A DNA stretch of 64,000 nucleotides from Haloplanus sp. CK5-1 (lineage in GTDB: Archaea > Halobacteriota > Halobacteria > Halobacteriales > Haloferacaceae), in assembly GCF_037201915.1 (NCBI RefSeq), contig NZ_CP147505.1, positions 744,001 through 808,000 on the forward strand. Direction: 5' to 3'. Positions 40,056-40,733 of the stretch are shown one piece after another. Each line of letters begins with the position of its first letter. Positions within the stretch are counted from its first letter, which is position 1. The notes under the pieces are model-generated. The model was not told the DNA's origin. It searched no databases and saw only the letters and a program-made list of their open reading frames with translations. The position numbers and the translations under genes were made by a program.

Positions 40056-40733
40056 TCAGTCGCCCCGGGTGCTGATCTCCTCGGCGATCCGGCCGCCGGG
40101 GTAGCGGAGGTGGCCACTCTCGACTTCGTAGATGTAGCCGTGGACCGTCGCGTCGACGAGTGGATGTTCGTCCGGATACCACACCTGTGTAGCACACGCC
40201 TCGTCTATATCGTCAGAACGCGACCGCGTTCTGACTGCTAACCAGAAATCTCTGATTTCTGGTGATGTCGTCGGTCATTCGCACCCAGTCGGCGACGGAG
40301 GCGTCGCCGATCGACAGTTCCGGTAGGACCGGATCCAGATCGACGTCGTCGAGGCTCCCGCCCGCCGCGGCTTCGAGTCCCTCGCCGACGGCGTCGTCGG
40401 GGGCGCTCATCATCCCGCAGTCGGTGTGGTTGACGACGATGATCTCCTCGGTGTCGAAAAACTGGGTCGTCAGCGCCGCCGAGCGAACCACGTCGTCGAT
40501 CACCTTCCCGCCGGCGTTGCGGTAGATTTGGGTGTCGCCCAGGTCGAGGCCGAGTACCTCCTCGAGGGGATGCGCTCGTCCATGCACGCGACGACGAGCA
40601 ACTGCTTGTCGGTCGGGATGCCCTTCCGCCGGCGTCGCGCCCAGTCGTCGCGCGCGTCGACGCCAGCGTCGACGTAGGCGTGGTGGTGCCCCGGTTCGCG
40701 GTCGACGTCGCCGTAGTATCAATCTCCCGACAT
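40056..40733 (-). pseudogene. beta-carbonic anhydrase, destroyed by three lesions
   Basis: Fragments in several frames rebuild a beta-carbonic anhydrase: LLVVACMDERIP, then EEVLGLDLGDTQIYRNAGGK, then EEIIVVNHTDCGMMSAP with the zinc Cys/Asp/His/Cys set, and C-terminal VDATVHGYIYEVESGHLR. The only ATG for the N-terminus (40733) is followed by an in-frame TGA four codons later. A G4 run near 40566-40570 has lost a base and shifts the frame. A 58-base insertion at 40206-40263 brings another stop. The gene cannot make a working enzyme. Confidence 0.85.
40206..40263. mobile_element. 58-base insertion made of two perfect hairpins
   Basis: Between codons reading GACGACATC and GACGAGGCG of the dead carbonic anhydrase lies extra sequence of 58 bases. 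It consists of hairpin A at 40212-40235 (arms GTCAGAACGCG and CGCGTTCTGAC, two-base loop) and hairpin B at 40241-40263 (arms ACCAGAAATC and GATTTCTGGT, three-base loop), five bases apart. Terminal hairpins without a target duplication recall the ends of IS200/IS605 elements, so this may be a minimal non-autonomous derivative or a deletion remnant. No transposase is present. Confidence 0.65.

Follow-up and report, generated by a model that had tools for sequence, protein, structure and literature searches.

The 58-nt insert that interrupts a carbonic anhydrase (CA) gene in Haloplanus sp. CK5-1 is probably a non-autonomous, ultra-short mobile DNA element, designated here the haloarchaeal double-hairpin element (DHE), which would be moved at the DNA level by short-homology-directed copying. 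The DHE consists of two perfect hairpins of 8-11 bp with loops of 3-4 nt, joined by a short conserved linker, measures about 51-58 nt and does not itself encode a protein. Copies at dispersed locations, precisely matching empty sites and covarying stems were observed, and the mobility of the element, as judged from its copies and empty sites rather than from transposition in action, is very likely. Insertion is precise, recent, lateral and sequence-directed, and is often accompanied by a short direct repeat of the target sequence (0-11 nt at six sites).

The window (the whole stretch of 64,000 nucleotides that was analysed) belongs to a genome of a single contig of 3.24 Mb (G000), the genus mates of which include Haloplanus ruber R35, G006 being Haloplanus ruber. 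The features of the CA locus are listed below in window coordinates.

40056-40733, minus strand: interrupted beta-type CA gene, recognised by Pro_CA (PF00484) in the empty G004 orthologue
40208-40265, minus strand: double-hairpin element of 58 nt, TCA-hpA-TTAGCAG-hpB-CGATA on the gene strand, from the covariance model and the empty alleles in six congeners
40241-40263, minus strand: hpA, the first hairpin of the element, arms of 10 bp and loop of 3 nt, from the DNA fold
40236-40240, minus strand: unpaired linker, TAGCA on the gene strand, from the aligned copies
40212-40235, minus strand: hpB, the second hairpin, arms of 11 bp and loop of 2 nt
40264-40272, minus strand: direct repeat GACGACATC (gene strand), adjoining hpA
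40206-40214, minus strand: second copy of the direct repeat, GACGATATA, adjoining hpB and partly decayed

Comparison with the empty alleles of six congeners gives an insert length of exactly 58 nt, which confirms the 58-base insertion in a dead CA gene claimed in an earlier note on this DNA, and the two perfect hairpins with arms of 11 and 10 bases, loops of two and three bases and a spacer of five bases are exactly as described there. The paired part of the insert spans positions 40212-40263 and comprises, on the forward strand, the hairpin GTCAGAACGCG-AC-CGCGTTCTGAC (40212-40235), the spacer TGCTA (40236-40240) and the hairpin ACCAGAAATC-TCT-GATTTCTGGT (40241-40263); the 58-nt unit was read on the gene strand as TCA-hpA-TTAGCAG-hpB-CGACA. 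In the family register, hpB has 9-bp arms and the 4-nt loop GGTC. The borders of the insert can slide because of the 9-bp direct repeat GACGACATC, and 40206-40263 is equivalent to 40208-40265; the hpB-side copy of this repeat is intact as GACGACATC in G006, G007 and G009. DNA folding of the hairpin stretch yields -19.9 kcal/mol, whereas shuffled versions average -8 (z -5.3; 0 of 200 shuffles), and the element scores 84.8 bits (E 4.1e-18) against covariance model R1 at 40207-40270.

In CA the 58-nt insert throws the reading frame off and cuts the protein short. The gene is dead in G000, where its further lesions are a nonsense mutation at codon 5 (40719-40721) and the loss of 1 nt around 40566-40569. 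Of 12 congeneric genomes searched with the hairpin stretch, G006, G007 and G009 carry this insert at the identical CA position. In G007 (L109/L142, C2:807663) the 5' half of the gene with the active site is lost as well, while the alleles of G006 and G009 have no lesion besides the insert, the frame is otherwise intact on both sides and the pN/pS values (0.028/0.213 vs G008; 0.019/0.245 vs G004) are like those of empty pairs. The insert was not found as part of an intact CA in relatives, which the earlier note had regarded as contradicting an insertion, though in G006 and G009 it does lie in an otherwise intact frame.

Related copies were detected by the same search at other sites in G004, G007, G009 and G011. 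The exact two-hairpin pattern matches 28 of the 171 family genomes, with no match for the reversed control, and a covariance model built from 17 copies matches 142 of the 171 at E <= 0.01 and, in a sample of 292 genomes from the class, 169 at E <= 1e-4, representing 58 of 77 genera. The haloarchaeal search suggested in the earlier note therefore returns further copies, so that the insert is not the solitary sequence that would have spoken against mobility, and the proposed family of ultra-short mobile hairpins is upheld by recurrence with varied flanks and exact empty sites.

The two-hairpin structure is conserved across these copies. In an alignment of 83 distinct copies that was fitted to the model, standard pairing is present in 95.3% of the pair cells and two-sided changes occur at 15 of the 19 stem pairs (182 cells vs 59 in shuffles), while pairing falls to 27-48% (at most 47.5%) in slid-partner controls. 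The MAFFT alignment A1 of the 17 copies has 12 of 19 pairs changed on both sides and 94.1% paired. The arms are usually 9-10 bp, the loops mostly 3 nt, and the stems begin with CC or TC; among the 71 distinct copies aligned with two perfect hairpins resolved, 58 have exactly the 5-nt linker TAGCA, and other subfamilies carry the linkers TTGGCnn or TGTGCG with different stems. The 3-nt loops occur in both orientations (GGA/TCC 12/6, AGA/TCT 7/5, GAA/TTC 5/6), a pattern that inversion of perfect hairpins, or their copying by strand switching, would produce. Tandem arrays of units with varying stems and constant linkers lie downstream of genes (L118:1386-1562, L213, L242), that of L213 near a glnA-like end. 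Rfam searches matched neither the DHE nor its tnpB context at the gathering threshold in 16 loci, nor the element at E up to 1 in the window region. No copy was detected in viral contigs (exact pattern) or phage records (blastn), and plasmid records hold one, inside an annotated IS605 transposase. Many near-identical intergenic multi-hairpin repeats were also seen in genus g21 (L207, L211, L220 and similar loci), with the unit as the middle part of a conserved structure; they may represent copies of an RNA gene or a composite repeat of greater size.

One subfamily arrived laterally and recently at the same CA position in four Haloplanus species. On a CA tree calculated with the insert removed, four changes are required to account for the four filled alleles, those of G000, G006 and G009 each group with empty relatives, and a single clade of filled alleles is rejected by the AU test (p 0.00017, or 2e-5 when the half-deleted G007 allele is left out). 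The four elements differ only in their loops and at 0-2 other bases, while the CA genes of these species show roughly 0.25-0.5 synonymous differences per site, and the CA inserts are therefore young. The exact form of hpB with a 4-nt loop is restricted, among the 171 genomes, to the CA copies, and the copy in a cation-efflux transporter gene of G009 has the 4-nt hpB loop of the CA copies with one stem change or mismatch; the CA copies and the shared loop thus point to one recent source. Near-identical elements in host alleles that do not form a clade indicate a recent common source and lateral spread. All four filled alleles have the same 15 bases (ATGACCGACGACATC) to the left of the CA insertion, of which 14 are also present at the cation-efflux target of G009, while the bases just right of the insert follow the lineage of each species. 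No excess similarity of the kind expected from co-transfer of donor flanks was observed immediately right of the junction or more than 30 bp to its left.

Six insertion sites were resolved, with junction direct repeats of 9, 11, 2, 3, 6 and 0 nt. The CA site, with its 58-nt unit, is filled in four Haloplanus species and empty in G001, G003, G004, G005, G008 and G010. The G009 cation-efflux transporter gene carries a 58-nt copy that nine congeners lack, and a molybdopterin-binding (CinA-like) gene of G000, located outside the window (L278:1515-1576 = G000 C1:2623914-2623975), carries a 56-nt unit with other stems and the linker TTGGCTG, the site being empty in nine congeners. Three distinct insertion sites lie within IS1341-type tnpB elements. 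At their 3' ends the unit is inserted between AGCCCCA and CCCTCAA, about 40-60 nt inward of the element's own end GTAGGGTGGGGTAGTTYAC, and uninserted elements exist. At a mid-tnpB site after SQSG codons the unit breaks the frame in L215; a Haloquadratum genome (L323) has it at the same site, and another TnpB retains an uninterrupted SQSGF motif. At the tnpB C-terminus (L280) a 57-nt unit lies in frame, and six sequences are uninserted. The unit also interrupts a tnpB reading frame mid-way in L275 and is in frame in the plasmid TnpB annotated as an IS605 transposase. The target 3' ends (CGACATC, CCCCA, TCCGG, CAACG, CACGT) share no constant tetranucleotide; the outer ends of the L215 unit are TCACCAGAA...TTCTGGTGA, and the inverted ends are imperfect in the CA copies. 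Insertion without target duplication, which the earlier note cites for IS200/IS605 transposons, was not observed, short direct repeats accompanying five of the six sites, nor was the fixed 4-5 nt target of such elements.

In the proposed mechanism the hairpins would be exposed in single-stranded DNA, the right end of the element (GACGACATC in this subfamily) would join a target with the same letters, and short-homology-directed copying at the DNA level would be aided by incoming DNA from related species. Since GACGACATC is present both in the right end and in the target, short-homology joining that probably draws on single-stranded or incoming DNA accounts most simply for the CA and cation-efflux sites; it is from this identity of target and end at the two sites that we infer such copying. 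The tnpB 3'-end site has only two bases in common with the element end. The direct repeats are variable and absent at one site, and a single cleavage chemistry is therefore not indicated. Insertion by short homology is put forward as a tentative component of the reading, with somewhat less than an even chance of being right. The majority of copies are embedded in tnpB elements or in larger multi-hairpin repeats, which may simply carry them along. A broader extension, in which transposase-free double hairpins of about 57 nt across the class pick matching targets by their own right end, re-enter one and the same position of a gene in successive species in a home-like manner and also settle in the guide-RNA/tnpB 3' ends of IS605-type transposons, is more doubtful still.

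It is rather unlikely that the unit is instead a REP/REPIN-like element whose movement depends on a trans-acting Y1 (HUH) transposase, of IS200/IS605 or RAYT type, that recognises single-stranded hairpins. The hairpin pairs with outer tags resembling CGTC/TGTC suggest such a relationship: among the units examined, CGTC stands to the left in 33% and GACG to the right in 31%, vs 15% in controls, and CGTC-tagged REPs likewise occur as dimers, insert into genes and lack a known dedicated transposase (PMC3733652). Y1 genes are present in 122 of the 171 family genomes. However, PF01797 (Pfam) is unmatched in G000, even though two genic copies sit there in broken genes; copies are also present and Y1 absent in G011, G061, G063 and G032, and both the target tetranucleotide and the outer tags are inconstant. 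Loss of such a gene is nevertheless conceivable, and DNA may reach the genome from other species. A quite improbable derivation is that of a minimal IS200/IS605 element, composed of left and right ends, or a PATE reduced to its termini. The 52-bp terminal-only PATEs of Haloquadratum, possibly mobile and formed by repeat-mediated deletion of the core (PMC3119063), offer a precedent, and the unit is common at tnpB 3' ends. At these ends, however, the hairpin pair is an internal insertion (AGCCCCA|CCCTCAA), the same type of tnpB exists without the pair, the true terminus lies further out, and units interrupt tnpB mid-frame in L215 and L275. The suggestion in the earlier note that the insert represents the left and right ends of such a transposon is not upheld, as the whole unit is inserted within tnpB elements whose true ends lie outside it; a look for TnpA/TnpB elements with the same end hairpins was proposed there, and the hairpins do occur in tnpB 3' ends, yet not as termini. 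A simple sum of IS605 ends was rejected, both hairpins lying together upstream of the real right end.

Two further readings of the CA site itself are very improbable. An ancient insertion in the Haloplanus ancestor, inherited vertically with several precise losses, would account for the position shared by four species, and precise loss across the direct repeat is conceivable; against it, the element copies are near-identical while CA has diverged at synonymous sites, the filled alleles are scattered on the CA tree, and gene constraint in G006 and G009 looks normal. An old vertical insertion was thus rejected by the CA tree and the element identity, and the alternative of the earlier note, a deletion scar, is not supported. 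Equally improbable is an insert tolerated through ribosomal bypass or RNA-level removal, as with the inserted blocks in Magnusiomyces mitochondria, which provide a precedent for tolerated inserts in genes (PMC5009743). The otherwise intact CA genes of G006 and G009 with low pN/pS, and the nine identical bases on either side of the gap, are consistent with it, but the CA genes of G000 and G007 carry further disabling lesions, recency alone explains the intact frames, and copy lengths are both frame-keeping and frame-breaking. A mobile DHE is retained as the preferred explanation.

None of the definitions compared, all from the open-access literature, fits the DHE family in full, and an earlier description may exist elsewhere. 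The small mobile repeats SMR-A and SMR-B of Haloquadratum walsbyi (80-110 bp) lack target duplication, their mobilisation has been called enigmatic, and SMR-A favours near-terminal palindromes of IS605-type elements and PATEs (PMC3119063). Like the DHEs, they are haloarchaeal, transposase-free, too short for a transposase and bounded by inverted-repeat ends, and the SMR-A sites in IS605-type elements parallel the frequent location of DHEs in the tnpB 3' end region. The DHEs differ in their length of 51-58 nt, their two complete hairpins, the usual short direct repeat and their presence in ordinary genes also; SMRs (HqIRS40-43, HqIRS55) are not described as hairpin pairs, and the DHE, set apart from them here by description, may overlap with them in sequence. 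PATEs and IS1341/IS605-type elements of haloarchaea (PMC3119063) and omega/sotRNA genes (PMC12558985) are known, and in relation to PATEs and IS605-type elements DHEs are inserted passengers rather than element ends. CGTC-tagged REPs, which include the Rickettsia palindromic elements RPE-4 and RPE-6, have 8-9 bp stems and form mostly inverted dimers; with loops of 4-5 nt, stems that start with AT and spacers of 20-100 bp in most cases, they lie sometimes within genes, where they are read as 20-30 amino acids, and are reported in bacteria, archaea being named only in the reference list (PMC3733652). The short palindromes, similar build, gene entry and absence of a dedicated transposase are shared, whereas the DHE has 3-nt loops, CC/TC-starting stems and a fixed linker of 5-7 nt, and does not fit the REP definition (stem of 8-9 bp beginning with AT, loop of 4-5 nt and a CCA tail). 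CGTC-type outer tags are enriched about two-fold in DHEs and are not universal, the CA subfamily having CATC and TGTC, and the GTAG tag of REPIN/RAYT systems is absent from the resolved DHE copies read. A review (PMC2800124) covers the double-hairpin elements of Allomyces mitochondria together with further repetitive elements that form hairpins; these very short units are scattered over sites in species that are close relatives, their mobility was inferred from species differences, and flanking duplications were reported absent in Allomyces. They resemble the DHE in having two adjacent hairpins, dispersed copies and empty sites in relatives, a functional parallel for which homology is not claimed; they differ in compartment and domain of life, and flanking duplications are often present in DHEs.

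The DHE would rank among the smallest mobile DNAs with exact empty sites resolved in any archaeon, and would be widespread in the class as well as capable both of breaking host genes and of adding short in-frame peptides. Because the unit is tiny, its borders are known and its hosts (Haloplanus and relatives) are culturable, the movement of transposase-free hairpin repeats is now directly testable. Many haloarchaeal TnpB 3' ends contain a DHE, which is relevant when omega-RNA scaffolds are defined.

Two related observations were made in addition. A histidine kinase gene of G000 (L279:1443-1499; C1:1702342-1702398) contains an in-frame two-hairpin segment of 51 nt, read as VEHGSTGNQNSMSSGDA, possibly a unit that has been domesticated, and haloarchaeal kinases may often contain comparable segments; the segment of G000 was excluded from the proven insertions because a clean empty orthologue was not resolved. 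The tnpB 3' ends of L103 and L140 carry a further two-hairpin insertion, with the linker TGATGA and the stems GAGACGG and GAGAGC, in the outer stem of the elements.
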